A stretch of 45,284 nucleotides of DNA from a bacterium (lineage in GTDB: Bacteria; Hinthialibacterota; Hinthialibacteria; OLB16), in contig JAJVIK010000027.1 in NCBI GenBank assembly GCA_022072055.1, positions 1 to 45,284 on the forward strand, written 5' to 3'. The notes beneath the pieces are model-generated. The model was given only the letters and a program-made list of their open reading frames with translations. It was not told where the DNA came from and ran no database searches. The position numbers and the translations under genes were made by a program. Shown piece after piece: positions 6,344-41,420 of the stretch; positions within the stretch are counted from its first letter, which is position 1; every line of letters starts with the position of its first letter.

Positions 6344-9300
6344 TTGGCTCCAAAGGGGAAAGGCTCCTTCATAGGCTATCGGTGGGTGTGGGGAGCGCTG
6401 GCAGCGGCGCTCTGCCTGGGTGAGTCGGTTTGCCTTGCCCGGGACCTCACCATCGGGAATGTGCCGTTCACCATGACGGTCACCCCGCGGATCAACAACC
6501 TCGCCACCTTCAAGCGATACCACCTCAAGGACATCGAATCCGCCCAGGCCCTCCAGGTCAGCGCCTATGTCTACTGTAGGGTCGAGTGTCCCGACGGCAA
6601 TCCGATGACGGATGATTGCGAGACGCTCCCGACCTCGGTCACGATGCGCTGGTCGGTCATTGACGCCACCGGAACGATCATTACCTCGGTCACTTCGCTC
6701 ACCAACGGAGTCGGCTGGAGCGGGTTCGTTTTCGATGACTTTTTTGAAATCTATTACACGCAGTTGGGGACGATTTCGATCCCTCTGGCGGGCCTCGACC
6801 TGGAACGCAAGCAGTACCGAATCGAGGCCGAGGTCGATCCCTTCAACGCGATTGCCGAAACCGACAACGGAAACAACGAAAGCACCTCCACGGACTCGTT
6901 CTTTTATACGATTTTTTCAGGAATTCTGAATTATGGCATGATCCCCACTCAGCTCACTTCGTTGAGCCTGGGGGGCCTTTGTGTGGTCTTTCCCGGTTCG
7001 CCGGTGATTCCCCTATCAGCGGCCATGGCGGAATGGACTCATGAGTGGGGGACAAGCAGCTTCTCGCCGAATCCAGCCTGTTATCACGACTCGCTCAACG
7101 CCGATGGTTTCTCGATAGACCTCACCGTGGCCGGGGGGACCCCGGCGGTCAACATCGGAACACTGGGCGGGACCACACCCAGCGGACTGATGGCCGAAAT
7201 CCGGAATGTCACCCTGGACTCCGGGGGCGCGCACTTCTCGCAAGCCGCGGTGTTCCTTCCCGATGAGGTCACCTTTCACAACCTGAAGACCCCTGGGGAT
7301 CCCAAGCAGGGCTACCAACCGTGCGGAAGGAACAAATTCGATTTCTTCTCCGCCATGGGCGACTTTGTCAACATTTATGACATCCCCGAACTGAACCAGG
7401 CGACACAATACGCCTATCACGGCTACGGCCACCCCTTTGTCCTGTTCGCCGACAGCGCCCGCTTCAAGCTGGGGGGGATGGACGGACTCTTCCTGGACAA
7501 TGTCCACGCCATGCACGCCCACTTCCCCTCCTATCACAACCTGAATCCCAAGGACCCGCGTGGTCCCACCAAACAGCGCAAGGGTTTTCCCACCAACGAT
7601 GTGGTCTTCATGGGCTATGACGCCACCCCGATTGCCCTGGCGCTGATCAACCCGAATGGAATCCAGGCCCAAGACCTCAACTTCAGTGATAACCCACCGG
7701 TGCTCACCACCCCGCGGACCTCCTTCCCTCAAGGGAGGATGTACTGGAACGCCTCCTTTAAGACCACGGTCGCCGATAATCGCCTGGTTCCCCAAAAGCT
7801 CCCAGTCCACAACTATCGGATGAAAGCGCGTCAGACCTGCCCGGATGATGATTGCGGCGACCCGATGGGGCCGGAAAACTACGATGTCTCCACGGATGAT
7901 GGGGATGTCTGGATGACAGACGACGGCTCCCTGGGGAGCCGCTTTACACTCCTCGGAAAGAACACCGAGTGGGGCAAGTGGGATTCCGGCAGCCCGACCT
8001 TCCGGCGCGATGACAGCCCGAAGGCGGGTGTTTTCTACCTCCCGGGAACTTATCTTCCGGGAACCTCAGACCCAGCGGTGCGCCGTGTGGCGCAGGTGCT
8101 GCTCGGTTCACGCCTGTTCGATGGGGCCGGCGGAGTTCCAGAGACCCTCTCGCCGCTTCTGGAGGGCGGCGGCGGCTCCCACGCCGACCAGGGCAACGGG
8201 TTCTACGCCGGTCTGACCATGGGGCCGGAGCGTCTTGAGACCCTTAACATGGGCGCCGGGGAGCTTCTTGAGGACGATCAGCTGATTCGCTTCAACGGAA
8301 ACTCCACTCACGACAGCTTCGATATCACCGACTACACCAAGTATTTCCTGCGCCCTTCCGGAGTCACCGGGGTGTTTAACACCAGCTTCATGGGCGTGCT
8401 GAACATTTACGGCTACGACATCGATTTCCGTCGCTTCGCCTTCCGCCAGGTGTACAACAAGCTCGACGGCAAGACCTTCCTCGATGGGACCCTCGACATT
8501 CCCTATCCCTGCGATATCACCGTGTCGTTCCTGGAACTCGACCTGCTCTGCAGCGGAGACCTCGGTTCCGGGGAGGTGGACAGCGAACCGGAAACCGATT
8601 GGCGCCACCCGGACGGTGTGGACAACGACGGCGACACCTTCACCGACGAGGGCAACCAGGTGCTCTCCTACTGGCAAACTCCCATCTCGATTACCGGGAT
8701 GGCCTTTGTCCCCACCGCGATGAGCGGCGACGCCTGCCTGGACAACGAAAACAAGGAACTTCAACTCCAGACGCTTGATGATGTGAACGGGATCGAGAAC
8801 ATCCTCACGATGAAGGCCATCTACCCGGTCAATGGGAAGTTGAAGAACCAGACCATGACCAGCGCGGCGGAAAACACCTACGACAAACCCCAGTCGAGCG
8901 CCGAGCCGGGGTTCAGCATCCGCTTGGAAAAGGCGTACCTCAATCAGCTCGCCAATTACCCGATGGCGCAGGAGGGATTCCTGGCCACGGCGGGCCTCAC
9001 CGATGTGCCGCTGTTCAACGACATGGAGACGCTGCTCCATCTGGATAACCCCACCCCGACCGGATTGGAGCTTCCGGATGAATCCTTCGAGATTCATGTC
9101 TTCAAGGATGAATCCGACACCGACACGGACAAGAACGGCATCCCGGACGCGTACGGCTCGAATGTGACAAATTACCGGAACCAACTCGCCAATGGCGAGG
9201 ACGCCCCCGAGTCGGGCGACCCCAGACCGCGCGCGAAATACTCCTGGCCCGCATCCGGGTTGCTTGAGCTCAATTACCCGCTCACATATAACCGCTCGGA

Positions 9301-12037
9301 TGGCTCCACTTCCCCACAATTCCTCGGGATCAAGAAGGTCTACAACCTGATCAGCGACAGCAATCCGGTCATCACCATCAATAGCGTGCCGGATTATATC
9401 AACCCGATCCGGACCAAATTTTCGTTCGGGGTGAGCGCCGACTTCGCCGCGATCACCAATTTCCAGGTGAACCTGAACGACCTGGGCGATATCGACGATT
9501 TCCTCCACACATACCTGGGGGTCGATCCGAGCTTCAGCCTTGAGGACATTTTCCAGAATGTGCTCGACGCCGAAAACATTGTGAAGTCCATCACCGGCGG
9601 GGACCTCACCCAAGTACTCGCCCCGATTGTGGACGCCGCCCTGGACGCCGGACCGGTGGACTCGGTGATCACCGATTTCGCCGACGCCATCGGGGTTGTG
9701 AACCGCATACCCCAGGAAGTCAGCGCCCTGACCGCGGACGTGCTGGATGAGTTCCGCGCCCAACTGCTCGCGGAGATCACCGGGGGAGCGGTCCCCCTGA
9801 ACGGCCCCTCCGGCTTCCTTCAGACTCTGTTCGATGATCTCGCCGCTTATGTCGCCGCGCCCGAGGACATTGTCAACGCTTATCCCGGCAATCCGCACAC
9901 CCCGGCTGAGATTGAGGCCTTCCTCGAAGCCTTGGAGGAGATCCGCAACCGTCTTTCGCAAGTCGAAAGCCTTCTGGACGATGTCCACGACGGCATCTCC
10001 ACGGCCAAGGACGAGGTCAACGACCTTTCCGACGACCTCGACGCGGCCCTGGCGGACGCCACCGCCCTGCTCACGGCGGTCAAGAACATCCTCAGCAACC
10101 CCGCCATGGGGCTTGGGGAGTTCTTGGGGCTTGCCAACAACCCGATCATCCAAACCGTTGATGACGTGAAAGACACGGTCCGCGATGTCCTTGAGGCCAT
10201 CAAGTCGGTGGACATCCACCTGATCGCGGACGCTCTTCAAGCCGCCGCTCAACTCGCGGGCGGTGACATCGACACCTCGCTGCTGGACGACATTGTGAAC
10301 ACGATTGATTCCCTCACGAGCTCGTTGGAGGAGATCATCGACCAAGCCGAGAACCTCCTCCAAGGGCAGTATGGCGCCATGCCCACCCTTTTCGACGACG
10401 CCGAAATGCTCCTCGACCAGGTCCTTGCCAGCCTCAACCAGGTCAACACGCAGATGGACGGGATCATCGCCATCCTGATCGGCTACATGGACGCCGCGGA
10501 CGATCAGGTCGGCGCGGTTCGAGGCGTGGTCCAGAGCCTGCGCGAACTGGTCACCGCCGATCCGCCCGATCCGGACATGGCGATCCTTCCGGACTACAAC
10601 GCCCTTCTCGATCTCGGACGCGACAAGCTCAACGATCTCGCGATGACCCTGGTGGACGATCTTCTCGCCCAATTCCCCACCGGCATGCTGCACGACGAGC
10701 TCGCCAACATCGACAGCCTCATTTCGGGCGACCCGGCCAACGCCTTCCAACACGCCTTCGTGGACGCGATTGAAGACCTCGTCGGCCTGCCTCTAGAGCA
10801 GGCCCAGATGGAGCTGGTCAATGAGCTCCAGATGGTTCTGGAACAAGCGGTGAGCGTGCTGCCCACCCCCGACGCCGACGACATCAAGGGGATCATCCGC
10901 AACGCGATCCTGAACAGCGACCCGGTGATCGACTTGAACGAGGCCTTTTATGATCTGCTCTCGCCCGTGGCGGACGCCGTGGACGAAGTCGCCACTCAGT
11001 TCACCAGCAGTATCAACAACCTGATCCAGCAGGCCATCGAGGCGGTGACCGAGGCGATCAACGCCGCGATTGATTCGGTCACAAGCGCCATTGCGGATTT
11101 CGACCTGGTGGGCGGGCGCCTGGACGGCTACGCGATTGTCAACCAGGAGGAGCTGGAGCAGCTCCACATCGAGGCCGAGTTCACCTTCGGCGGGACCCCC
11201 GATCCGACCACCTATTTCGCCGCCCTCGACATCACCAGCTGGAACTCCGAGAACGGGAAGGGGGCCTGTGTCGACGATGGGACCGGCTTGATCGACGCCG
11301 TGATTTCCACCCGCGACATCTCCGCCGAGATGCTCGGCCTGCCGATCGGCATCAAGGAGGCCGCGCTCGGATTTACGCTTGACCAGGGGATTCCCATCGG
11401 GGTCTTCGGGCGGGTTTACACCTCCGGCGAGCTCAATTTCGAGGCCGCGGCGATCCGCGACATCGGACTCGAATTCGGGATGGGGGCCATCGAGAACTAT
11501 GTCGGCGGCAAGGCCGCCGGACGCTTCGATTCGTACACGATCAATGTGATCGCCTTCTACTTCGGAAAGACCTGCGACTATGGGGTCCTTGAGCGTCTGG
11601 ATCCCGAGGCCGCCGCCTTCATCGGCGAAATGGTTCCGCTGATCGGAATCTATGTCCGCGGCGCGGTGTCCGCTCCGATCATCAACTACGGGTGCTTCCT
11701 CACCATCGGCGCCGGGGTCGATCTGGGGGTCTGGTTCCTGAACGACACCTTCGGCGGCCTCTTCGGCGGATCGGTGTACGGAGAGGCGATCTGCCTGGTG
11801 TCGATCCGCGGCAAGATCACCCTGCTGGGCCAGAAATCGGGCGAGTATTTTGAGTTCGCCGGAAACGCCTGGATCGCCGGGGGCATCGGCTTCTGCGAAC
11901 CGGAGGATTGGAACAGCATCGCCGATGTTCGCGATGACGACTGGTGCCTTACCGGGGACGCCCAGTTCGGCGGAACCTACAGCACCGAGAACAACGATTT
12001 TGAACTGATGGGACCCGACTTCAGCTGTTGCGATTAG
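6344..12037 (+). CDS. Giant exported protein (1897 aa) with CARDB-like, helical and beta-rich regions; function unknown
   Basis: Not recognised as a whole. Residues 1-33 form a Sec signal peptide (hydrophobic WVWGALAAALCLGESVCLA, cleavage likely before RD). Residues about 40-165 look like a CARDB-type beta sandwich ending in AIAETDNGNNES. Around 753-766 is a DGVDNDGDTFTDEG calcium-site motif and around 920-932 a second one, DTDTDKNGIPDAYG. From about 1026 to 1590 the chain is acidic and almost wholly helical with heptad-like stretches, probably a long coiled rod. The last 300 residues are glycine- and beta-rich with several cysteines, ending in CCD. The start is TTG at 6344; no in-frame ATG fits before the signal peptide. 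No C-terminal anchor is evident. First gene of a three-gene unit. Confidence 0.8.
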   Translation: MAPKGKGSFIGYRWVWGALAAALCLGESVCLARDLTIGNVPFTMTVTPRINNLATFKRYHLKDIESAQALQVSAYVYCRVECPDGNPMTDDCETLPTSVTMRWSVIDATGTIITSVTSLTNGVGWSGFVFDDFFEIYYTQLGTISIPLAGLDLERKQYRIEAEVDPFNAIAETDNGNNESTSTDSFFYTIFSGILNYGMIPTQLTSLSLGGLCVVFPGSPVIPLSAAMAEWTHEWGTSSFSPNPACYHDSLNADGFSIDLTVAGGTPAVNIGTLGGTTPSGLMAEIRNVTLDSGGAHFSQAAVFLPDEVTFHNLKTPGDPKQGYQPCGRNKFDFFSAMGDFVNIYDIPELNQATQYAYHGYGHPFVLFADSARFKLGGMDGLFLDNVHAMHAHFPSYHNLNPKDPRGPTKQRKGFPTNDVVFMGYDATPIALALINPNGIQAQDLNFSDNPPVLTTPRTSFPQGRMYWNASFKTTVADNRLVPQKLPVHNYRMKARQTCPDDDCGDPMGPENYDVSTDDGDVWMTDDGSLGSRFTLLGKNTEWGKWDSGSPTFRRDDSPKAGVFYLPGTYLPGTSDPAVRRVAQVLLGSRLFDGAGGVPETLSPLLEGGGGSHADQGNGFYAGLTMGPERLETLNMGAGELLEDDQLIRFNGNSTHDSFDITDYTKYFLRPSGVTGVFNTSFMGVLNIYGYDIDFRRFAFRQVYNKLDGKTFLDGTLDIPYPCDITVSFLELDLLCSGDLGSGEVDSEPETDWRHPDGVDNDGDTFTDEGNQVLSYWQTPISITGMAFVPTAMSGDACLDNENKELQLQTLDDVNGIENILTMKAIYPVNGKLKNQTMTSAAENTYDKPQSSAEPGFSIRLEKAYLNQLANYPMAQEGFLATAGLTDVPLFNDMETLLHLDNPTPTGLELPDESFEIHVFKDESDTDTDKNGIPDAYGSNVTNYRNQLANGEDAPESGDPRPRAKYSWPASGLLELNYPLTYNRSDGSTSPQFLGIKKVYNLISDSNPVITINSVPDYINPIRTKFSFGVSADFAAITNFQVNLNDLGDIDDFLHTYLGVDPSFSLEDIFQNVLDAENIVKSITGGDLTQVLAPIVDAALDAGPVDSVITDFADAIGVVNRIPQEVSALTADVLDEFRAQLLAEITGGAVPLNGPSGFLQTLFDDLAAYVAAPEDIVNAYPGNPHTPAEIEAFLEALEEIRNRLSQVESLLDDVHDGISTAKDEVNDLSDDLDAALADATALLTAVKNILSNPAMGLGEFLGLANNPIIQTVDDVKDTVRDVLEAIKSVDIHLIADALQAAAQLAGGDIDTSLLDDIVNTIDSLTSSLEEIIDQAENLLQGQYGAMPTLFDDAEMLLDQVLASLNQVNTQMDGIIAILIGYMDAADDQVGAVRGVVQSLRELVTADPPDPDMAILPDYNALLDLGRDKLNDLAMTLVDDLLAQFPTGMLHDELANIDSLISGDPANAFQHAFVDAIEDLVGLPLEQAQMELVNELQMVLEQAVSVLPTPDADDIKGIIRNAILNSDPVIDLNEAFYDLLSPVADAVDEVATQFTSSINNLIQQAIEAVTEAINAAIDSVTSAIADFDLVGGRLDGYAIVNQEELEQLHIEAEFTFGGTPDPTTYFAALDITSWNSENGKGACVDDGTGLIDAVISTRDISAEMLGLPIGIKEAALGFTLDQGIPIGVFGRVYTSGELNFEAAAIRDIGLEFGMGAIENYVGGKAAGRFDSYTINVIAFYFGKTCDYGVLERLDPEAAAFIGEMVPLIGIYVRGAVSAPIINYGCFLTIGAGVDLGVWFLNDTFGGLFGGSVYGEAICLVSIRGKITLLGQKSGEYFEFAGNAWIAGGIGFCEPEDWNSIADVRDDDWCLTGDAQFGGTYSTENNDFELMGPDFSCCD

Positions 12038-12054
12038 GCTGAGATGGAATTGCG

Positions 12055-15000
12055 ATGCGCACTATGACCTTGGACATACGCACCGGAAACCGAGCCAGGC
12101 TCTTGGCAACCGCGCTGGGATTCTGCCTGGGATTTTCCGCGAGCGCGGCGGACCGGATGTATTTCACCGGGATGGTGGAGCCGAACGCCGACACCCTCAT
12201 GAACCAAGTGGTCCTGGTTTGGGGACCGCTGGAGCAAGCCATCCCGGATGACCTCACCGGCTTCCGACTGTATCGCCGCCCGATGGCCGGGGTGTTTGCC
12301 CAGATCGCCGAGCTGCAACGGGGTTTGGCGGACCAAGCCACCATTCTGTCTTTTTTCGCGGAGCCGGGAGAGGACGCGCGCGCGGCGGATATCGAGGAAT
12401 GGGCCTTCAACAGCAGCGGCGGCGCAGTGGTCGGGATCACCGAGACTGTGGCCTATCTCCACGACATTTTGAGCGTGACCCCCGGCCACCCCAACTACAA
12501 CCCGATGAATGTGGTCTTCCTCTCTCGAATGAACCCGAACGTGGCGCGCGCCCTGGGGCTGGCGTACATCGACAGAAACGCGCTTCCGCCGGGGAGTTAT
12601 GAGTACATGCTGACCGGCCTCATGGGAACCACCGAAACCCTACCCCTCGGCAAGACTGTGGTGGACAGTTCGGTCGAGGATGTGTTACCCGCTCCCGGCG
12701 GGTTTTCGCAGGTCTTTGTCGGCGGTTGCTCGGTGATCGGAAGGGGCTTGGATGACCGCCGCATTCACTTCCGCTGGGATGTGCCGCTTGAACCGGAACG
12801 TCTGCGCCAGCGCATCCTCACCTATGGGTATGATCTGTTCCGCTCGGACGCCCCGCTGGCGCTGGGTCCGAATGATTTGCGCAACATGCAGATGTCGGGC
12901 ATGTTCAACCCGGCGCTCACCAAGGTCAATCGGGTTCCGATCGTGGTCGCTGGGCAACCGGCGGCGGAGGGCCGCGAAAGCTATCTGGCCATCGACCAGG
13001 GCGACTACAACAACTTCAATTACCTCCAGCGCGGACGAACCTACTCCTACTATTTGGTGGCGCGCGACCTCACCGGCAAGTATTCCGAAATGGCGCCGGC
13101 GCTCACCGCGATGGTTCCGGACGCCAATCCGCCTCCGGCTCCTTGGGGTGTGCGCTCCGAGGAGGTCAAGGACCCCATGACCCCCACCATCCCACGCCTT
13201 CAGATCGTGTGGGATGAGATGGACAAGCCCAATTTCCTCAAGAATTACGGGACTCGGCGGCATTTCGTGAATCCCCCCGCCTACGCCAATCCGCTCGAGC
13301 TCCACTATGTCCCGGATGGGGAGCAGATCGAGCCGAAGAACCTCCGTGAAGTCGATTTGGATGTGGACCGCTATCTCCTCTTCCGCTTCTTCACCCAGGA
13401 AGACGCGCAGGGCTGGGGAGTGGACAGCGACGTGGACTACTGGCCGGACGAGATCGAGGACGCCTCCGGGACCGACAAGTGCGATCCGATGAGCCATCCG
13501 GCGGGGAACCCTCCGGAGCTCGCGGCGATTATCCCGACCTCCGACGCCACCACGCTGCGGACGCTCCGCAACGGGATGAAGCAGCGCTTTTTCCGCGACA
13601 CGGTCCCAATCGACGACAACCATGTCTACTGGTACCGCTTGATCGCGGTGGACCCGTTCGACAACCAAAGCCCGCTTTCACCCCCGGTGCGCGGAGTCCT
13701 ATGGGACCGTGACCAACCCGACCCCGACGCCGAAATCACCAAGGAGCGTTGCCGATACACGGTGGAGAGGGACCCCAACTGCTTTTTCACCGCGGGTGGA
13801 ATCCGGATTAAGGCCTCGGACGAATCCGCGGCCCGTGAGAACCCCGAGGAAGGACGAGCCCGATCCGTTTGTCTGTATGAGGTGTGCGTGGAGCGCGATC
13901 CCTTGGGCAACCCCATTGGCGAAACCCTGGTCTTCATCCTCGAGAAAGAGATTCGGCAGAGGATGGCGATCATTCTCATCGATGACCTGACCCGGATTAT
14001 GGACTGCCGCTCCCTCTGCGGGGATCGGAGGGAAGATCGGAGCGCGATTTTCGTGCTCCGCTACTACGATGCGCGGGGGCACATCCTCGCTTCATCCGAA
14101 TACTTCTCCGGACTCATTTGCCAAACGCAGGGTCCCGATTGCTTCATCCTCAAGGAGGACTGCAGGGAGGTTCCGGTTGATCCCGGCGAGACCCTTGATC
14201 CGGGGGACGACATCCACATCTGTGTCGAGCTCAAGGCCGGTGAGCGCGCGCGCATCTTCCATGAGCTCAATGGGAAGATGACACCGTTCAAAACCATTCA
14301 CGCCGCCTCGGATGTGGCCCTCATGGATTACTGCGAGGATATCGACCTCACCGCGATTGTTCCGGCGGGGGCCTGCTTGGGCGTGAGAGTGTTCAGCAAG
14401 AACAATGTCGGGTCGTTCATCAAGTACTTGAACTGTGTCACCATCCCCTCCGGAACGCCGGAGGCGCCGCTGATGCACAGCGTGGATCCCGCCGGAACCA
14501 ACCTCGCGCCCAAGTTCACGGTCCGCTGGGCCGCGCAGAGCGAGGGGCTCTCCGCTTTTGTCCTGGCGATGCGTCACCAGAAGGATGTCCGATTCGAAAC
14601 CTACTGGATCGATGATTCCAACGGGGCAATCTCGTATTTGAACGGCCTGTACGAAGTCATGGTGGACCTGAACCCGGCCACCGACCTGTACAAGGAGTGG
14701 TGCTTCGAGGTTCGCGCGGTGGACAAGACCCTGCGAAGCAGCCCCTGGTCGGAGGAAATGTGCGAAACCTGGGAGCCGGAGCCGGGAGACCACCTGACTT
14801 GGCCACCGGTCCCCGAAACCCCCGCTGGGAGCGGAATCCTCGCCTATTTCCTGGCCACGCCGCTAATGCCTCAAGTGGTGCTGGTGCTCAGCGAGGATCT
14901 CACCGGCAAGATCAATCTGGACAATCGCTGCAATGTCCAATTTCCGGATTGCCGGGAAACCCAAGGGGAGGGATGCCTGCGGCCGTTCACCTTCTTCTGC

Positions 15001-15381
15001 ACCGGGATCTGCGATGAACTCAAGGCGGCCAATCAGTATGGAAAGTTCATTGTTTTCCGTCAGGAGGAAGGGAAGGACTTTGTCCAGGTCAGCCCCCTGA
15101 TCGACACCTTCTGGTGCTACCGCGAGGAGACCAAGCCCGCCGGCGGCGGATTGATCAGCCAGGAAATCCTGGATGATCCCTTTGTGTTCCTCGCGGCCCC
15201 CAACCCGAGCTTCATCTTTCCGGTGCCCATCCGCCCGGAGGTGAGCGGTCTCCGGCTGCTTTTCGCGGACAATTACCCGTGCCGGCGCGGGAGCAAGGTG
15301 CGCTATCAGGTGATGGTGGTGGATCCGATCACCGGCGAGGGAACCGCCATGCACACCAGCAACTGGCTGGATATCCCCTGA
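12055..15381 (+). CDS. Large exported multi-domain (fibronectin type III-like) protein, 1108 aa; function unknown
   Basis: Second gene of the unit, 17 bases after the first. Signal peptide at residues about 15-31 (LLATALGFCLGFSASAA, cleavage before DRMYF). The mature part consists of repeated beta domains resembling fibronectin type III modules: VVLVWGPL...LTGFRLYRRP near residues 45-80, RGRTYSYYLVARDLTGKYS near 325-345, VYWYRLIAVDPFDNQSPLS near 525-545 and WCFEVRAVDKTLRSSPWSE near 883-901. About twenty cysteines in the second half suggest disulfides, fitting an extracytoplasmic place. Two Met starts (12055 and 12064) are possible. No enzyme motif was found; a scaffold or surface role is an inference from the domain style. 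Confidence 0.8.
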   Translation: MRTMTLDIRTGNRARLLATALGFCLGFSASAADRMYFTGMVEPNADTLMNQVVLVWGPLEQAIPDDLTGFRLYRRPMAGVFAQIAELQRGLADQATILSFFAEPGEDARAADIEEWAFNSSGGAVVGITETVAYLHDILSVTPGHPNYNPMNVVFLSRMNPNVARALGLAYIDRNALPPGSYEYMLTGLMGTTETLPLGKTVVDSSVEDVLPAPGGFSQVFVGGCSVIGRGLDDRRIHFRWDVPLEPERLRQRILTYGYDLFRSDAPLALGPNDLRNMQMSGMFNPALTKVNRVPIVVAGQPAAEGRESYLAIDQGDYNNFNYLQRGRTYSYYLVARDLTGKYSEMAPALTAMVPDANPPPAPWGVRSEEVKDPMTPTIPRLQIVWDEMDKPNFLKNYGTRRHFVNPPAYANPLELHYVPDGEQIEPKNLREVDLDVDRYLLFRFFTQEDAQGWGVDSDVDYWPDEIEDASGTDKCDPMSHPAGNPPELAAIIPTSDATTLRTLRNGMKQRFFRDTVPIDDNHVYWYRLIAVDPFDNQSPLSPPVRGVLWDRDQPDPDAEITKERCRYTVERDPNCFFTAGGIRIKASDESAARENPEEGRARSVCLYEVCVERDPLGNPIGETLVFILEKEIRQRMAIILIDDLTRIMDCRSLCGDRREDRSAIFVLRYYDARGHILASSEYFSGLICQTQGPDCFILKEDCREVPVDPGETLDPGDDIHICVELKAGERARIFHELNGKMTPFKTIHAASDVALMDYCEDIDLTAIVPAGACLGVRVFSKNNVGSFIKYLNCVTIPSGTPEAPLMHSVDPAGTNLAPKFTVRWAAQSEGLSAFVLAMRHQKDVRFETYWIDDSNGAISYLNGLYEVMVDLNPATDLYKEWCFEVRAVDKTLRSSPWSEEMCETWEPEPGDHLTWPPVPETPAGSGILAYFLATPLMPQVVLVLSEDLTGKINLDNRCNVQFPDCRETQGEGCLRPFTFFCTGICDELKAANQYGKFIVFRQEEGKDFVQVSPLIDTFWCYREETKPAGGGLISQEILDDPFVFLAAPNPSFIFPVPIRPEVSGLRLLFADNYPCRRGSKVRYQVMVVDPITGEGTAMHTSNWLDIP

Positions 15382-15390
15382 GCGTAACGG

Positions 15391-18300
15391 GTGAAGCGGC
15401 GAAAGAAGACCATGAAGAGCGAACGAATGCAGACATTCCGGTCCTTCCTTCCGTGCCTGACCGCGATCCTCGCGCTCGGGGGCGGCGCCTTCGCGTACGA
15501 CCCCGAAACCAACGAGAATGTGCTGGTCTTCGACGCTGCCGGAAATGTCCTCAAATCCTTCCATGTCGGGGATTACACCACCCTGATCGACGCCGCCAAC
15601 ATCCATTCCGAGGAATACAGCCCCGGCTCTCCCCCAAACCTCGATTCGACCGGAACCACGCCTTACCTGTACATGGGCGGGGAACGGTGGGTGCCAAACG
15701 ACCTGTCAGGACAGTTTCCGGTCTTCCCGAGCGCCCTGCCGGAGGTTTCGCTGTTCAGTTTCGGCGAGGCCCTGCTCCCCAGTCCTTCCTCGGCCACTCC
15801 CGGCGTGTCCCTCACTCCCGGCGGGGGCGCATACCCCCATTCTCTCCAGGTCGAGGTGAAGGGGTTCCCGCCCTCCTCCACAGTCGAGGTGTATGACGAG
15901 GGGACCGGGATGTGGAACATCTTTGGGAATTCCACCTCGGTGATCCTGATCCAGAGCCGCAACCTCCAGGTTCGCAGCTTGGATGGCGGGATCTATTCGC
16001 CGATCAAGTCGGTCACTTACACGATTGTTCAGGATGCGACCGCGGACACGGACTTTGATGGCATCCCCGACCTGATCGAAGTCGAGCTCTCCATGGAACA
16101 CCCTTCGATCCCGTTTGATCCGTTCGTTCCGGACGCCGGGAAGGATTCGGATTTGGATGGCCTGCCGGACCTTGATGAAATCCTCCGCGGCTCGGATCCG
16201 GAAGGGGCGGACCTTGACGGAGACGGATGGAGCGACGCGGATGAGGTCGCGATGGGAACCAACCCGAACAACCCAGCCGATTTTCCTCCCGGTCCGGTCC
16301 CGGTCTATGCTCCACCGCTCCTTCCAATTGACACCGATGGGGACGGTTGGGCGGACTTCGACGAGATCTTGCGCGACACGCTAGCCAACGACGCCTCCAG
16401 CCTCCCCACCGCACGCTGGCTTTATGAAGTGGAGAGCATCGCCGATGGAGGAGTGTCCGGCGCCGTGGTCTGCCCGACCTGTGAGCGCCACCTTTCGGTC
16501 GCTGAAGTGGCGGGCGCTGCACTGCATTCCGCGACACTTGTGGACGACACCTTCATGGGGGTGCGGACCCCGCGCGGGCGTCCCTCGCTGATTCGGTTCG
16601 CCTCGAAATCGGAACGTGTTCTCGGCGCGCTCACGCAGATCGACACCAGCTGGTCGGCGCGGCGTTTCCTGCCCGCGGTGCAGGATCCTTCACCGGGGGA
16701 TATCGATCCCGCCGATTGGTATGAGGCGGGCAAAGGGCCGGTGGACTTGCTCGCCAACTGGCTTGCCGCATACGAGGCGCTTCTCGACGCCAATCTGCTG
16801 CTGCCGGCGGTGAACGTGGTGGTCTCCGCCACGACAACAGCGCCCGCCGCCCTGCTCGATCGCGCGCTGACCTTCGCCGAATGCGCACGCCTTGGACGCC
16901 AGCCGACCTTCGAGGAGTGCAGCGGCATCGCCGGTCGAATCGGGATCAGCCCCTCGCGGAAGGCGGTGGATGCCCTTTCCTCGCGTCTCCAGATTCCCGC
17001 CCAGGTTCCCGACTCGCTCCTTCCGGGCGAGACCCCTGAAACCTTCCGTACCCAGGGACGTCGCCTGAACGCCCTCATGGAGGACCTGCAGGCGCTCGCC
17101 GAAAACACCGATCTCCAGGCGCGGCTCCTCGAGTGCTACGCGATGTTTGCCGCGGGTCAGGACCTGGAGGTCTTGATCTTCCAGAAGACCGGGAACCTGA
17201 ACCTGTTCTATCCCGTGGTCCTGGCTCTCAGTCTCTCCTACCAGGAGATGATGGATTCCGGTTATCCCCTCTGCCTGCTCCTCGATCCCTTCGCCGATCT
17301 GGACGCCGACATGCTGGCCAATTTCATCGAGGCGCTGGGGTACAACAAGGGTCGCGAAACCAGCATCTTCCACCCCGACACGGATGGAGATGGAATCTCC
17401 GACACCGAGGACAATTGCCCCACCGTGGCGAACGGATCCGGCGATGGCGACAGCAATGGGGCCGGGGATAGTTGCGATCCGGACGACGATGGCGATGGTC
17501 TCCAGGATGTGGTCGAGGATGGCCTCGGATCGAACGGGGGAGTTGTGGACACGGATGGCGATGGTTGGCCGGATGGCGCTGAGTTTCTGATGGGACTGAA
17601 TCCGGTCAATCCGAACGACGCCATCCTGCGCCACGAGACGATTCCCTCCACCTCGGCCTTCGCGACCGAGGTCTATCCCAACCCGGTGGTCGGGGCTCCT
17701 CCCTTTGTGTTCGCCAACCCGGTGACCCAAGACAGCGGGCTTTCGACCCTCGCGAATCTCCGCACGGTGACCAACCTCTCCTTCCAGCATCGAGTGGAAA
17801 AGGACCCGGGCCAGGGTGGCGCCTTGGGACCCGAGCAGATTTCTTATCTGGTTCTGTCGCACGCGCCGAGCGGGTGGAATCGAGGTCGTGTGGCCGTGGG
17901 GAACGCCGCTGCGCATGTTGTCTTTGCGGTTCCGTTCCCCTTTGGAATCAAGCCGTTGGTGTTCGCAATGATCCAGTCTGAAAATGATCCGACGCGGACT
18001 TACTATCCGGAAGTCACCAACATTACAAACACGGGATTTTCGGTTCGTGTGCGCGCCAACGCCGCCCAGACCCCACCCGCGGCCTACATGGAGACCGTGG
18101 CCTGGGTCGCCTTCCTCCCCGGAACTCTCCCGGTCCCCGGCGAAGCCTCGAGCGCCATGGTGAGCTCGGTCAGTCAAACCATTCCGTTCTCGTCGGCCTT
18201 TGCCGCTCCCCCGGATATCCTGGTCTCCTTGGAGGGAGTCGGGACCCAAGTCCTGGTCTCAAATGCGACTACCACCGGTTTTGACGCGCGGATTGTGAAT

Positions 18301-18957
18301 GACGCCGTGGTGGGCGGGACCCCGGCCCCGCAACGTCTTTCCTGGATGGCCCTTGGCCCCAAGGCGTGCGAGGACCCCGACCACGACGGCATCTGTTCGG
18401 ATGTGGACAACTCCCCCATGGTGTATAACCCCGACCAGGTCGACACCGACATGGATGGGATCGGGAACGTGGAGGATGTGGACGCCGACAATGACGGTCT
18501 TCCCGACATCTATGAGATCGGCATCGCCGATTGCGGTTTCTCTCCATTCAACAGCGACAGCGACGGCGATGGAATCGACGATGGAGATGAGGATTACGAC
18601 GGTGACGGCTTCAGCAATGAAGAGGAAGTGAATGGGGGTTCGGATCCGTTTGATCCCAATCAAGGCCCGGGCGATGTCACCCCCACTCCGAGTCTGACCG
18701 CCACTTCTCCCTTCCCGCCCACGGCGACCCCCACCCCTTCAATCACTCGCACCCCGACACAAACCGCAACCGCGACTCGAACACTCTCGCCCACCATCAC
18801 CTCGACCCCCTCGGTGACCCCGACGCAAGGGTTGATCATCTACAATCCAATCTATGTGTTCGAGGTGCTCTTCAAAGAACCGGTGACACCGATTAAACTC
18901 TACGAACTGGCGAAGTACTGGTATCTGCCGGGGCCGACTCCCACGCCGACTCCTTGA
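15391..18957 (+). CDS. Large exported calcium-repeat protein with possible H-type lectin-like domains, 1188 aa
   Basis: Third gene of the unit, 9 bases after the second. Signal peptide with a KRRKK-rich start and core CLTAILALGGGAFA, cleaved before YDPETN. Thrombospondin type 3-like Asp repeats (DTDFDGIPD, DSDLDGLPD, DLDGDGWSD and similar) lie at residues about 217-293, 663-733 and 993-1090. Two tandem beta domains at about 787-986 have the IPFSSAFAAPPDILVSL...TGFDARI pattern of H-type lectin-like modules. A Pro/Thr linker (about 1096-1146) precedes a short terminal piece ending in PTPTPTP. GTG at 15391 is used here; ATG at 15412 is an equally good start. Likely calcium-stabilised and on the cell surface or released. 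Confidence 0.8.
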   Translation: MKRRKKTMKSERMQTFRSFLPCLTAILALGGGAFAYDPETNENVLVFDAAGNVLKSFHVGDYTTLIDAANIHSEEYSPGSPPNLDSTGTTPYLYMGGERWVPNDLSGQFPVFPSALPEVSLFSFGEALLPSPSSATPGVSLTPGGGAYPHSLQVEVKGFPPSSTVEVYDEGTGMWNIFGNSTSVILIQSRNLQVRSLDGGIYSPIKSVTYTIVQDATADTDFDGIPDLIEVELSMEHPSIPFDPFVPDAGKDSDLDGLPDLDEILRGSDPEGADLDGDGWSDADEVAMGTNPNNPADFPPGPVPVYAPPLLPIDTDGDGWADFDEILRDTLANDASSLPTARWLYEVESIADGGVSGAVVCPTCERHLSVAEVAGAALHSATLVDDTFMGVRTPRGRPSLIRFASKSERVLGALTQIDTSWSARRFLPAVQDPSPGDIDPADWYEAGKGPVDLLANWLAAYEALLDANLLLPAVNVVVSATTTAPAALLDRALTFAECARLGRQPTFEECSGIAGRIGISPSRKAVDALSSRLQIPAQVPDSLLPGETPETFRTQGRRLNALMEDLQALAENTDLQARLLECYAMFAAGQDLEVLIFQKTGNLNLFYPVVLALSLSYQEMMDSGYPLCLLLDPFADLDADMLANFIEALGYNKGRETSIFHPDTDGDGISDTEDNCPTVANGSGDGDSNGAGDSCDPDDDGDGLQDVVEDGLGSNGGVVDTDGDGWPDGAEFLMGLNPVNPNDAILRHETIPSTSAFATEVYPNPVVGAPPFVFANPVTQDSGLSTLANLRTVTNLSFQHRVEKDPGQGGALGPEQISYLVLSHAPSGWNRGRVAVGNAAAHVVFAVPFPFGIKPLVFAMIQSENDPTRTYYPEVTNITNTGFSVRVRANAAQTPPAAYMETVAWVAFLPGTLPVPGEASSAMVSSVSQTIPFSSAFAAPPDILVSLEGVGTQVLVSNATTTGFDARIVNDAVVGGTPAPQRLSWMALGPKACEDPDHDGICSDVDNSPMVYNPDQVDTDMDGIGNVEDVDADNDGLPDIYEIGIADCGFSPFNSDSDGDGIDDGDEDYDGDGFSNEEEVNGGSDPFDPNQGPGDVTPTPSLTATSPFPPTATPTPSITRTPTQTATATRTLSPTITSTPSVTPTQGLIIYNPIYVFEVLFKEPVTPIKLYELAKYWYLPGPTPTPTP

Positions 18958-19205
18958 GGTTGAGGTCCTTTCGGCGCACTCATTGACAGGGGTTGTTGGG
19001 TTTCTTTATCCTCCCTGCCTTTCAAGGAGCCGGTGTGCCGATTGCGCACGCCCGGAGGGGACCGGTATATCAAGGCCTGGGAAACCGCCCGCGACTCTGG
19101 CTCGTTTAAGGTGAGATCAGGTTTCGCGCGGCGCGGACATGCGTCCGACGCCAGGTTATTCCATGAGGACCCAAATAAACCAAACCGTAAGGCGGAGGAA
19201 GTTAG

Positions 19206-23102: not shown

Positions 23103-24383
23103 ATGCCTCTGGCCAAGACGGCCCAAAAGAAGTATTATCGTACCGTTTTCATGGTCAACATGGGCGACACCGAGAGAGGCTGTTCCAACTGTCGTTCAGC
23201 ATCCTACCTCGCCTCCCCCGCCCGAGAGGGTCCTTCAGCGCGCCTGTTTCTGGCTCTCGCCACTCTCTGCACCTTTGCGTTGGGCGCAATTGCAGGCGGC
23301 GACTCCCTCAAGGTCGCGCCTTCCGAGGTGGGACTGATTCCCCCCGTGGCCCAAGGCCCGGTCTCCCCAGAAGAAGCTGGGAAGTGGCTGGACCGAAGCG
23401 TGAAACTCGGGGATGTCTCCCCCTCGGCGCTTGAGATTGAAGTCTTCAACTTGATCAACCAGGCCCGGGCGAATCCCGGGGCCTTCGGCTATGGGTATCT
23501 CACCCCCGCCCCACCGCTCCACTGGAATGCCGCGCTGCTCTACATCGCCTGGGTCCACAGCCAGGACATGGCCACCGAGAACTATTTCAACCATGACTCC
23601 TACAACCTGGTTGGCGGGCAACTGGTCTTTGACCGTAGCTGGGTGGATCGGGTGAGAAGCCAGTACCCGTTCAACACCAACATCTCCGAGAACATCGCCT
23701 GGAACACCAGCGGCTCGGCCCAGGGCATTGTGCAGGCCTGGATGGACAGCCAGGGGCACCGTGAGAACATCATGAACATCAGCGGGATCTACACCGAGGG
23801 GGCCATCGGGGTCGCAACGGGAAACGGGAAGACCTATTGGACCCATGACTTCGGGGGCCGCGAGATCTCGTACAACCTGGAGATTGCGAACCTTGCGTTC
23901 AATCCTCCCTCTCCGAACCCGGGGGACACGGTGAATGTGTCCTTCCAGATCAACAACCTCGACCAGACCGACGCTTTCCCCGTGGAGGTTGTCGTGTACC
24001 GAGGAAACCCGCACTCCGGCGGGACACCCCTCACGAATGTTTACTCGATGAGCCAGATCGTTCAGTCAGGGGTGGCCTATGGCCTGAATGGGAACCTGAA
24101 CACCACGGGCTATCCCACCGACACCGAGATCTATGTCTGGCTCGATCCGAATTCACGGTTCGCCGAGACCAATGAGTCCGACAATCTGATCCATCGCGTT
24201 CTGTTCGAGGGAGGCGGCCTTCTTTGCGACCTGAACGCGGATGGCTTGGTCAACGGCCTCGACATCTTCCGATTCGCGCGCGGCTGGTGTCAAAACGACC
24301 CGACCTGCAATCTGGATGGGGTCGGGCATGTGTCCGCCGGCGATTTGCTTCTTTTCGCCGGAAACTGGCCGACGGACCATTAA
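23103..24383 (+). CDS. Exported CAP-domain (SCP/PR1-like) protein with CARDB-like domain and dockerin-like tail
   Basis: A 426-aa exported protein. A hydrophobic segment at about residues 47-63 (LFLALATLCTFALGAIAG) serves as signal peptide after an unusually long N-terminal part; later starts at 23151 or 23160 are possible. The CAP domain (about 107-258) shows EIEVFNLINQARANPG, LHWNAALLYIAWVHSQDM, HD, SENIAW and the HRENIMN motif, with the conserved His/Glu residues. A CARDB-like domain follows (about 262-372, ending FAETNESDN). The C-terminus is a dockerin-like type I repeat pair (DLNADGLVNGLDIFRFA ... DGVGHVSAGDLLLFA). It is probably surface or extracellular; its substrate is unknown. Confidence 0.9.
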   Translation: MPLAKTAQKKYYRTVFMVNMGDTERGCSNCRSASYLASPAREGPSARLFLALATLCTFALGAIAGGDSLKVAPSEVGLIPPVAQGPVSPEEAGKWLDRSVKLGDVSPSALEIEVFNLINQARANPGAFGYGYLTPAPPLHWNAALLYIAWVHSQDMATENYFNHDSYNLVGGQLVFDRSWVDRVRSQYPFNTNISENIAWNTSGSAQGIVQAWMDSQGHRENIMNISGIYTEGAIGVATGNGKTYWTHDFGGREISYNLEIANLAFNPPSPNPGDTVNVSFQINNLDQTDAFPVEVVVYRGNPHSGGTPLTNVYSMSQIVQSGVAYGLNGNLNTTGYPTDTEIYVWLDPNSRFAETNESDNLIHRVLFEGGGLLCDLNADGLVNGLDIFRFARGWCQNDPTCNLDGVGHVSAGDLLLFAGNWPTDH

Positions 24384-39374: not shown

Positions 39375-40400
39375 ATGCTCGAACTCCCCATTATTCGCCG
39401 AGGTCGGTCGATCGGCTTTTCCAACGGCGGTTGGAAGTACGATCGCTACCCGGAACTCGAGTCGCTGGATGCCGGAAAAGCGATCACGGTGGCCGAGCTG
39501 AAAGGCCCCGGGGTGATCCGCCAGATTCACTCCACCCGTCACAACCCCGCCGAGTTGTTCGCGCGGGGCGTGGTCCTCGAGATCCGGTTCGATGAAGCTC
39601 CAACCCCCGCGGTGCTGTGCCCGCTCGCGGATTTTTTCGGGGATGGCTGCAACGGAAAGGGCATGGACTTCACATCGCTGTTCATCGAATGCGCGCCCTG
39701 GAGTTACAACTGCTACATCCCGATGCCATTTGAGAAATCGGCGCGAGTGATGCTCCGCAACGACACCCACGAAAACACGGCCAACTACACTTTTGTCGAA
39801 TGGGAAAGGCTATCCCAGTGGAGGCCCGACCTGGGTTATTTCCACGCGGCCTTCGAGCGGAAGTGCTTTCAGCTCACCCCCGAGAGTGATGTGGAATTCC
39901 TCCACCTCAAGGGGGCCGGTCATATCCTTGGAAGGCAGTTCAGCGTTATCACCGATGAACCGATCTTTCGGGAGTTCCAGTTTGTCATGGAGGGCAACAA
40001 CGAGGTGGACATCGATGGAGCGGAGCGAGCCCTTGATTACCTTGGGTCGGAGGATTCGTTTACCTTTTCATGGGGATTCCGAGGGACTTTCACGGGACTC
40101 CGGGCGGGGATGCCATTGGCACATGTCGGGCCGGTCAACCTGCTCTCGGTCCATCGGTTCCACGACCACGCCCCGATCCGCTTTGACCGGGAGCTTCGTT
40201 GGCACATCAACTGGCGCCACGAGGAGCACATGATTCACCGCCCGGAATGGCGCGAAGCGGTGGCCCGGGATGGTTGCTGGGTGGATTACGCAACCGTCCA
40301 TTACTGGTACCAGGACAACCCTGGCGGTTACGATCACAAGGCCCTCTCTCGCGTGGAGGACCGCGCCAAGGAGATGCTGAGGCGGTCGGTCAAGGCCTGA
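39375..40400 (+). CDS. GH172-family (DUF2961) glycoside hydrolase
   Basis: A 341-aa protein of the DUF2961/GH172 family, whose studied members are alpha-fructofuranose-acting difructose-anhydride enzymes and D-arabinofuranosidases. Family segments include AGKAITVAELKGPGVIRQIH, LEIRFDEAPTPAVLCPLADFFG, and the later EGNNEVDIDGAERALDYLGSEDSFTFSWGF and YQDNPGG blocks, quoted in part. No signal peptide is present, so the enzyme should be cytoplasmic, unlike many relatives. GGAGG precedes the ATG. It is followed 21 bases later by msrP, an unusual neighbour. Substrate unknown. Confidence 0.85.
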   Translation: MLELPIIRRGRSIGFSNGGWKYDRYPELESLDAGKAITVAELKGPGVIRQIHSTRHNPAELFARGVVLEIRFDEAPTPAVLCPLADFFGDGCNGKGMDFTSLFIECAPWSYNCYIPMPFEKSARVMLRNDTHENTANYTFVEWERLSQWRPDLGYFHAAFERKCFQLTPESDVEFLHLKGAGHILGRQFSVITDEPIFREFQFVMEGNNEVDIDGAERALDYLGSEDSFTFSWGFRGTFTGLRAGMPLAHVGPVNLLSVHRFHDHAPIRFDRELRWHINWRHEEHMIHRPEWREAVARDGCWVDYATVHYWYQDNPGGYDHKALSRVEDRAKEMLRRSVKA

Positions 40401-40421: not shown

Positions 40422-41420
40422 ATGCACATCCCCAAACATCACCCTGGCTGGATCAGGGGACTTCAGCCCACCCCCGAAGAGCTGTACCTCAATCGACGGA
40501 GGTTCCTCCAGGGCCTGGGGCTGGCGGCCATCGGAGGGGCAGGTCTGCCCCTACTCGGCGCGCAGGCCGCACCGCCTGGAAGCGGCTCTTCAGTCCGGGA
40601 GATCCAGGGAGCCACTGGAACTGTCACTCAACAAACCGCCCCATCCGACATCTACCCCGCCCCGCGCAACGAAAAGTTCAAACTGGATCGTCCCATCACC
40701 GATGAGCGCGTGGCCGCCCGGTACAACAATTTCTATGAGTTCACGGTCGAGAAAGACTTGGTCTGGATGCTGGTGGAGAAGTTCCGGACTGAGCCCTGGC
40801 GAATTGAGATCGGTGGGCTGGTCGAGAAACCGGCGACCGTGGACTTGGATGAGCTCATTCGGGCAATGCCGATGGAGGAGCGCCTCTACCGTCACCGCTG
40901 CGTGGAGACCTGGGCCATGGCTGTCCCGTGGACAGGATTCCCACTGTCGGCGCTCCTCAAGGAGGTTCAGCCCAAAAACAGCGCCACGCATGTTCGCTTC
41001 GTGAGCTTCCTGCGTCCCGAGGAGGCCCCCGGCCAAGCGGAAGACCGCCGCAGCCCCTGGCCCTACCAGGAAGGTCTCACGATTGCGGAGGCGATGAACG
41101 AACTCACGTTGATCGCGACGGGAATCTACGGGCATCCCCTGCCGAAACAACATGGCGCGCCGATTCGCCTGGTAACCCCCTGGAAGTATGGGTTTAAGAG
41201 CATCAAGTCGATCCGGAAGATTGAGCTGGTGGATCACCAGCCCGCGACTTTTTGGAACACTCTGATCCCGGACGAGTACGACTTCGCCGCCAATGTGAAC
41301 CCCGGCAAACCCCATCCGCGCTGGTCACAGGCCACGGAATGGATGATTGACACGCGAGATCGTCGCAAGACACTGCTCTACAACGGGTACAAGGAGTTCG
41401 TGGCGGGACTCTACGGATAG
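40422..41420 (+). CDS. msrP: Protein-methionine-sulfoxide reductase catalytic subunit MsrP (YedY)
   Basis: A 332-aa periplasmic molybdopterin enzyme that repairs oxidised methionines in envelope proteins. The Tat signal NRRRFLQGLGLAAIGG lies at residues 24-39 and there is an AxA site at 48-50. The molybdenum-ligating Cys is C160 in YRHRCVETWAMAVPWTGFPL. The YNNFYEFTVEKD, HGAPIRLVTPWKYGFKSIKS and closing NGY segments are typical. Length equals E. coli MsrP. No membrane subunit MsrQ follows, so the electron donor must be elsewhere. AAGGAG site eight bases before the ATG. Confidence 0.96.
   Translation: MHIPKHHPGWIRGLQPTPEELYLNRRRFLQGLGLAAIGGAGLPLLGAQAAPPGSGSSVREIQGATGTVTQQTAPSDIYPAPRNEKFKLDRPITDERVAARYNNFYEFTVEKDLVWMLVEKFRTEPWRIEIGGLVEKPATVDLDELIRAMPMEERLYRHRCVETWAMAVPWTGFPLSALLKEVQPKNSATHVRFVSFLRPEEAPGQAEDRRSPWPYQEGLTIAEAMNELTLIATGIYGHPLPKQHGAPIRLVTPWKYGFKSIKSIRKIELVDHQPATFWNTLIPDEYDFAANVNPGKPHPRWSQATEWMIDTRDRRKTLLYNGYKEFVAGLYG

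Follow-up and report, generated by a model that had tools for sequence, protein, structure and literature searches.

A 45,284-nucleotide stretch of DNA (the window), a complete contig (JAJVIK010000027.1) of a 5.86 Mb genome from the bacterial phylum Hinthialibacterota, carries three adjacent genes for very large proteins, which we call P1, P2 and P3. We find that these genes form a unit restricted to the phylum within the samples searched, that the divergence of P1 and P2 is coupled, and that the C-terminal end of P3 has been exchanged between lineages. With moderate confidence we propose that the three proteins make up a calcium-stabilised adhesive assembly at the cell surface, in which P1 and P2 would be the scaffold and P3 the exchangeable binding tip.

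P1, P2 and P3 form a linked unit

Homologues were sought by profile searches in 14 species of the window's class, which we take as standing for the phylum because the next nearest genomes are listed only as 'same domain'. P1 is present in nine of the 14 genomes and P2 in the identical nine, giving 11 gene clusters. P2 is the gene directly after P1 in all 11, with order and strand kept, and P3 comes next in 10 of them (cut by the contig end in G002), being absent from the cluster G010c. Tight spacing is near-universal: P2 and P3 overlap by four bases in five clusters and by one base in one more. An all-against-all comparison of the flanks showed that the conserved block consists of the three genes alone, with one upstream gene beyond them common to two loci; the set spans three or more families of the phylum and its flanking genes lack conservation. 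One genome (G010) holds three diverged P1-P2 copies, two with P3 (G010a and G010b) and one without. An earlier reading of the window from its letters alone (the sequence-only reading) had held that homologues occurring only as unlinked genes would speak against a joint role for the three proteins; what we see is the reverse arrangement, with P1 and P2 adjoining wherever they occur and P3 following in all clusters but one.

Outside the class, P1 was missing from both of two overlapping genome samples (290 and 386 genomes), as well as from phage records, from IMG/VR and, with its C-terminal part as the query, from plasmids. P2 had no match in IMG/VR, and neither the 50,697 phage records searched nor IMG/VR gave any homologue. 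The five class genomes that do not have P1 and P2 are 90–94% complete, which makes most of the absences probably genuine, but individual ones may be gaps.

Coupled divergence of P1 and P2 and exchange of P3 ends

Across the clusters, with the in-genome copies of G010 included, the identity matrices of P1 and P2 correlate at r=0.97, or r=0.92 when the window's family is left out, and none of 5000 permutations reaches this. In P3, a core bearing thrombospondin type 3 (TSP3) repeats is common to all members, with an extra N-terminal FG-GAP propeller in five members of family f2, and the end that follows the core takes several forms. The window and G001 have an H-type lectin, then TSP3 and a Pro/Thr tail; G007 and G009 have a second FG-GAP propeller; G005 has a dockerin; G010a and G010b have a repeat that matches nothing in Pfam; and G003 and G006 have almost nothing. 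In the tree of P3 cores G009 pairs with G010a (support 0.97), as it does in P1 and P2 (support 1.0), but the end of the G009 protein matches that of G007 (47% over 425 amino acids (aa), E ~1e-104) and the end of the G010a protein matches that of G010b (37% identity). Because the cores group in agreement with P1 and P2 and the ends do not, we conclude that the ends moved between otherwise co-inherited clusters. Other giant FG-GAP proteins of the phylum are a possible source: most of the phylum's genomes (G003, G006–G013) have the FG-GAP propeller module of P1', a relative of P1 described below, inside giant open frames that reach 3818 codons.

The three genes encode putatively exported proteins

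The three same-strand open reading frames of 1897, 1108 and 1188 aa, with spacers of 17 and 9 bases, lie exactly where the sequence-only reading had placed them (Table 1). The chance of a random open frame this long at this composition is about 4e-26 for P1, 1e-15 for P2 and 1e-16 for P3, the G+C content by codon position is coding-like (0.61/0.41/0.80 in P1), and the existence of homologues at 20–65% identity shows that the genes are real. The signal peptides previously assigned to all three proteins correspond to N-termini that look Sec/SPase I-like, a call made by reading the sequence. In P1, 19-aa windows with a mean hydropathy above 1.6 occur only in this N-terminus. The same kind of reading finds no lipobox at the three N-termini, and the window's P1–P3 carry none of the anchor signals looked for (lipobox, LPxTG, RTX, C-terminal hydrophobic helix); as the sequence-only reading had said, there is no enzyme or known anchor signal in these proteins. 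The presence of conserved cysteines fits an extracytoplasmic site. The single good promoter claimed for the operon was not recovered: a scan gives no site on the + strand upstream of position 6344, and promoter-like sites number two against 3.1 expected, which is the level of chance. The sole strong promoter-like site on the + strand, at 18983, lies past P3 and ahead of a dksA-like gene, which is the gene directly after P3. Further along the window are a gene for a sulfite-oxidase-type molybdopterin-binding oxidoreductase (40422–41420) and, nearby, a DUF2961 gene (39375–40400).

Table 1. Genes and protein regions of the P1-P2-P3 operon, in window coordinates
Feature	Position	Strand	Description
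P1	6344-12037	+	1897 aa, TTG start; signal-peptide-like N-terminus, then long beta-rich, amphipathic helical and C-terminal amphipathic-beta, Cys-containing parts
P1 signal-peptide-like N-terminus	6344-6442	+	aa 1-33, ending ...SVCLA-RD; sequence reading
P1 beta-rich region	6911-9463	+	aa ~190-1040; distant relative in P1'
P1 acidic amphipathic helical region	9491-11143	+	aa ~1050-1600; alpha moment ~0.9-1.3 against ~0.35-0.73 in the rest of P1
P1 C-terminal amphipathic beta domain	11141-12034	+	aa 1600-1897; invariant Cys 1642, 1784, 1817, 1851, 1868, 1895
P2	12055-15381	+	1108 aa, ATG start; signal-peptide-like N-terminus and chain of related Fn3-like modules
P3	15391-18957	+	1188 aa, GTG start; constant core and lineage-specific C-terminal tip
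P3 core	15508-17616	+	aa 40-742; TSP3 calcium repeats at aa 219-330 and 663-742
P3 tip, H-type lectin	17878-18375	+	best stretch aa 928-969, second stretch upstream; PF09458, 35.9-38.8 bits, cut-off 24
P3 second TSP3 block	18442-18630	+	aa 1018-1080; motif positions and match to thrombospondin-2 repeat structure, E=1.8e-7
P3 Pro/Thr-rich linker and C-terminal tail	18664-18957	+	ends LYELAKYWYLPGPTPTPTP

Two clusters have interrupted frames. In Candidatus Hinthialibacteria bacterium OLB16 (G001; locus G001:C52 on contig LMZT01000052.1, 56,423 bases), which belongs to the same GTDB family as the window genome, P1 appears as four open reading frames with 4-base overlaps next to intact P2 and P3. 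Gene fission and coupled translation were rejected as explanations, each junction being one lost base relative to the window protein; the three single-base losses are either sequencing errors or real decay. In G005 (locus G005:C12, 9186–12108) P2 lies in two open reading frames (9186–9998 and 10204–12108) and the joined frame contains TGA and TAA, indicating a frameshift or a pseudogene.

Architecture of P1 and P2

P1 matches no Pfam or NCBIfam family at its cut-off. A CARDB-like stretch in its N-terminal 190 aa reaches 14.3 bits against a PF07705 cut-off of 22.7 (E=0.049), so a firm call of the CARDB module of the sequence-only reading is unsupported, whereas its calcium repeats and lectin, both in P3, lie above Pfam curated cut-offs and its fibronectin-like assignment holds for P2 by way of the relative P2'. 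A separate gene of the window (23103–24383) encodes an exported-looking protein in which a CAP (cysteine-rich secretory) domain above cut-off is combined with a CARDB-like stretch. Most of the invariant columns of P1 fall at aa ~550–1030, and the helical region is shorter in family f2, at ~400 aa. Matches of P1 to ATG17, prominin and similar Pfam families were rejected as effects of amphipathic-helix composition. PADLOC matches to ZorA and LeoA (E ~0.007), located in the same helical segment, were rejected too.

PHROG tape-measure families also match the helical part of P1 (best E=4.7e-8), and a tail-fibre C-terminal family weakly matches P3 (E=0.016), as might be seen if the genes encoded the tape measure and fibre of a phage or prophage tail. 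We consider this origin very improbable, given that the tape-measure matches are confined to the amphipathic helical segment and hence compositional, that the phage records and IMG/VR hold no homologue, that the N-termini are signal-peptide-like and that no phage genes occur among the scanned genes of the window. It is also improbable, if less so, that P1 conducts lipids or polymers through a beta-groove or barrel and that the operon is an envelope transport system. Such a role would account for the strongly amphipathic beta segments at aa 650–750 and 1650–1850 of P1 and for its acidic amphipathic helices, which are weakly similar to apolipoproteins, but AsmA, TamB, MCE and barrel families are unmatched at Pfam or NCBIfam cut-offs, the acidic, Cys-rich C-terminus of P1 is unlike barrel signals, and the lectin and TSP3 modules of its partner P3 do not fit.

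No P2 member has a Pfam match above cut-off. At the same time, sub-regions of P2 are similar to one another (modules 2 vs 3, E=1.9e-7), and P2' is a distant homologue over 419 columns (E=1.4e-26) that is itself above cut-off for an Ig/Fn3-type Pfam family and matches the Fn3 structure 3mpc. On the strength of these internal repeats and of the homology to P2' we read P2 as a chain of Fn3-like modules, for example at aa 34–215, 210–360, 355–560 and 800–920. Family f1 has a Ca-type insert, DSDVDYWPDE, near aa 455–475. Profile searches of the PDB with P1, P2 and P3 gave nothing meaningful, and P1 and P2 are, judged by sequence, two unnamed families of large proteins unmatched in Pfam, NCBIfam and the PDB.

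Modules of P3 and the dockerin of a relative

The TSP3 repeats of P3 score 49.9 bits with TSP3_bac (PF18884) against a curated cut-off of 25. At the place of the window's Pro/Thr tail, P3 of G005 carries a terminal type I dockerin (24.7 bits against a cut-off of 22.9), and the window genome itself has 15 dockerin and three cohesin matches above cut-off. Together with the Pro/Thr linkers and the lack of any anchor signal, this could mean that P1–P3 are secreted polymer-binding or matrix proteins that are released rather than anchored, for polysaccharide capture or as a biofilm matrix, in the manner of cohesin-dockerin assemblies. We regard this as unlikely: a recognisable dockerin occurs in one P3 only, the tail of the window's P3 gave no match to the dockerin family (PF00404) in the Pfam search, and, unlike a cohesin-dockerin assembly, the operon has neither a scaffoldin nor enzymes, all three proteins being without a catalytic domain. 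The 15 dockerins of the window genome lie outside the operon, as do the three cohesins, and those dockerins that were seen sit at protein C-termini.

A sister system with a different third gene

In two genomes P1', P2' and a third gene stand in a row (G010:C29, 4967–14102, and G009:C160, 7345–16898). P1' (1650 and 1798 aa) has an N-terminal FG-GAP propeller and a beta region, without a helical part. Its middle beta region is collinear with that of P1 (it scores 37.6, and 30 column-shuffled controls reach 20.8 at most); the similarity between the C-terminal domains of P1 and P1' is not significant (24.8 against a shuffled maximum of 22.8). The third protein (558 and 547 aa) is unlike P3 by eye, and its motifs NCYGMS, GGHTMAV and YDPN, also read by eye, suggest a papain-like or C39-like peptidase; it matches no Pfam family and has no meaningful PDB match.

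If the third gene is indeed peptidase-like, P1 and P2 would be the platform for a partner that varies, namely the third gene. It may then be that P1 and P2 serve generally for display or export, with P3 as the cargo here and the predicted cysteine-peptidase-like protein in the sister system, and that adhesion is one use among several. The homology of P2' to P2, the collinearity of P1' with P1, the shared gene order and the P1-P2 pair without P3 in G010c all argue for such a general platform, which we nevertheless find doubtful, as the sister system occurs in two genomes only, P1' carries a propeller at its N-terminus and is without the helical region, and the peptidase call has neither a Pfam nor a PDB match behind it. 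In a wider form, put forward as a tentative suggestion, P1 and P2 could be an extracellular platform, so far undescribed and belonging to one uncultured phylum, that carries varied third proteins, either binders with exchangeable ends or peptidase-like proteins, and would thus represent a new modular surface machine unrelated to RTX adhesins, autotransporters and pili.

Comparison with known systems

The sequence-only reading knew of no described system with this set of genes, and we found none in the libraries searched. Nor did we find a publication on the P1–P3 genes; the few consulted that name the phylum give taxonomy or abundance only.

RTX adhesins of the LapA/AhLap type are very large surface proteins in which tandem beta-sandwich extenders go together with calcium stiffening and with ligand-binding modules close to one end; each is a single chain that has RTX nonapeptide rolls, a retention domain at the N-terminus and a signal for type I secretion (PMC12077191, PMC7493085). 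P1–P3 resemble them in the tandem Ig/Fn3-like extenders (the internal repeats of P2, Fn3-like via P2'), in a ligand-binding module near one end (the H-type lectin of the P3 tip, above cut-off) and in calcium. On the other hand, the window has three Sec-type proteins, of which P1 and P2 match no known family, and the RTX motif GGxGxD is absent from P1–P3. Nothing similar to the LapG-cleaved N-terminal retention domain appeared among the Pfam matches of P1–P3 at E ≤1, no search for it having been aimed at the genome.

The outer-membrane exchange receptor TraA/TraB of Myxococcus is polymorphic, with a variable recognition domain and a Cys-rich stalk, and TraB has TSP3 repeats (PMC12045341). P1–P3 would likewise be operon-encoded surface partners, with TSP3 repeats in one of them, but they are three rather than two, have no OmpA, beta-barrel (Pfam/NCBIfam) or MYXO-CTERM match, and show no sequence relation to TraA/TraB that we could find. 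The cell-cell cohesion proteins MtsC/MtsD and CglD (NF047638, NF047639, NF033765) also share TSP3 repeats with P3, with scores of 50.4, 30 and 23.4 bits that lie far under the NCBIfam cut-offs of 350, 800 and 400; the best stretches fall on the TSP3 blocks of P3 and adjoining sequence. Thrombospondins (PDB 1yo8, 2rhp) have the same calcium-binding type 3 repeats; they are animal proteins and the repeats alone match. P1–P3 thus belong neither to the RTX adhesins nor to TraA/TraB, the likeness being a functional one, to large modular calcium-dependent surface adhesins.

A proposed adhesive assembly

In the assembly that we propose, the Sec route would take P1, P2 and P3 out of the cytoplasm. P1, with its beta regions around a long amphipathic helical segment and its conserved Cys-containing C-terminal domain, and P2, as a chain of Fn3-like modules, would form a constant scaffold on the cell surface, extending outward. 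P3 would join this scaffold by its constant core, the Ca2+-binding TSP3 repeats giving stiffness, and its end would display a binding module, which is two H-type lectin stretches here and a beta-propeller, a dockerin or another module in relatives; a swap of the module would then swap what the cell binds. The physical complex, its location at the surface, the part that serves as anchor and a glycan or other polymer as ligand are what we infer. The sequence-only reading had left the choice between a coat, fibre, adhesion or matrix function open; the exchange of the P3 end between lineages leads us to prefer adhesion to a coat or matrix.

Linkage in 11 clusters lends good support to the shared extracellular assembly that had been suggested for the three proteins. 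Several observations weigh against our proposal. The ends of the window's P1 and P3 carry none of the sought anchor signals that would explain attachment to the cell. P3 is missing from G010c, and with the window's family left out its divergence follows that of P1 and P2 more weakly (r=0.50 and 0.43). H-type lectin and FG-GAP modules are found in non-adhesive proteins too. AlphaFold models, made from the window and OLB16 rows only, were unusable, with a predicted local distance difference test (pLDDT) score of 30 for the C-terminal domain of P1 and 28 for the first half of P2.

Almost nothing is known of how Hinthialibacterota contact their surroundings. If the proposed adhesive assembly is real, the swapped ends of P3 would be a direct record of the binding targets of each lineage, and each of these ends could be expressed and tested singly.

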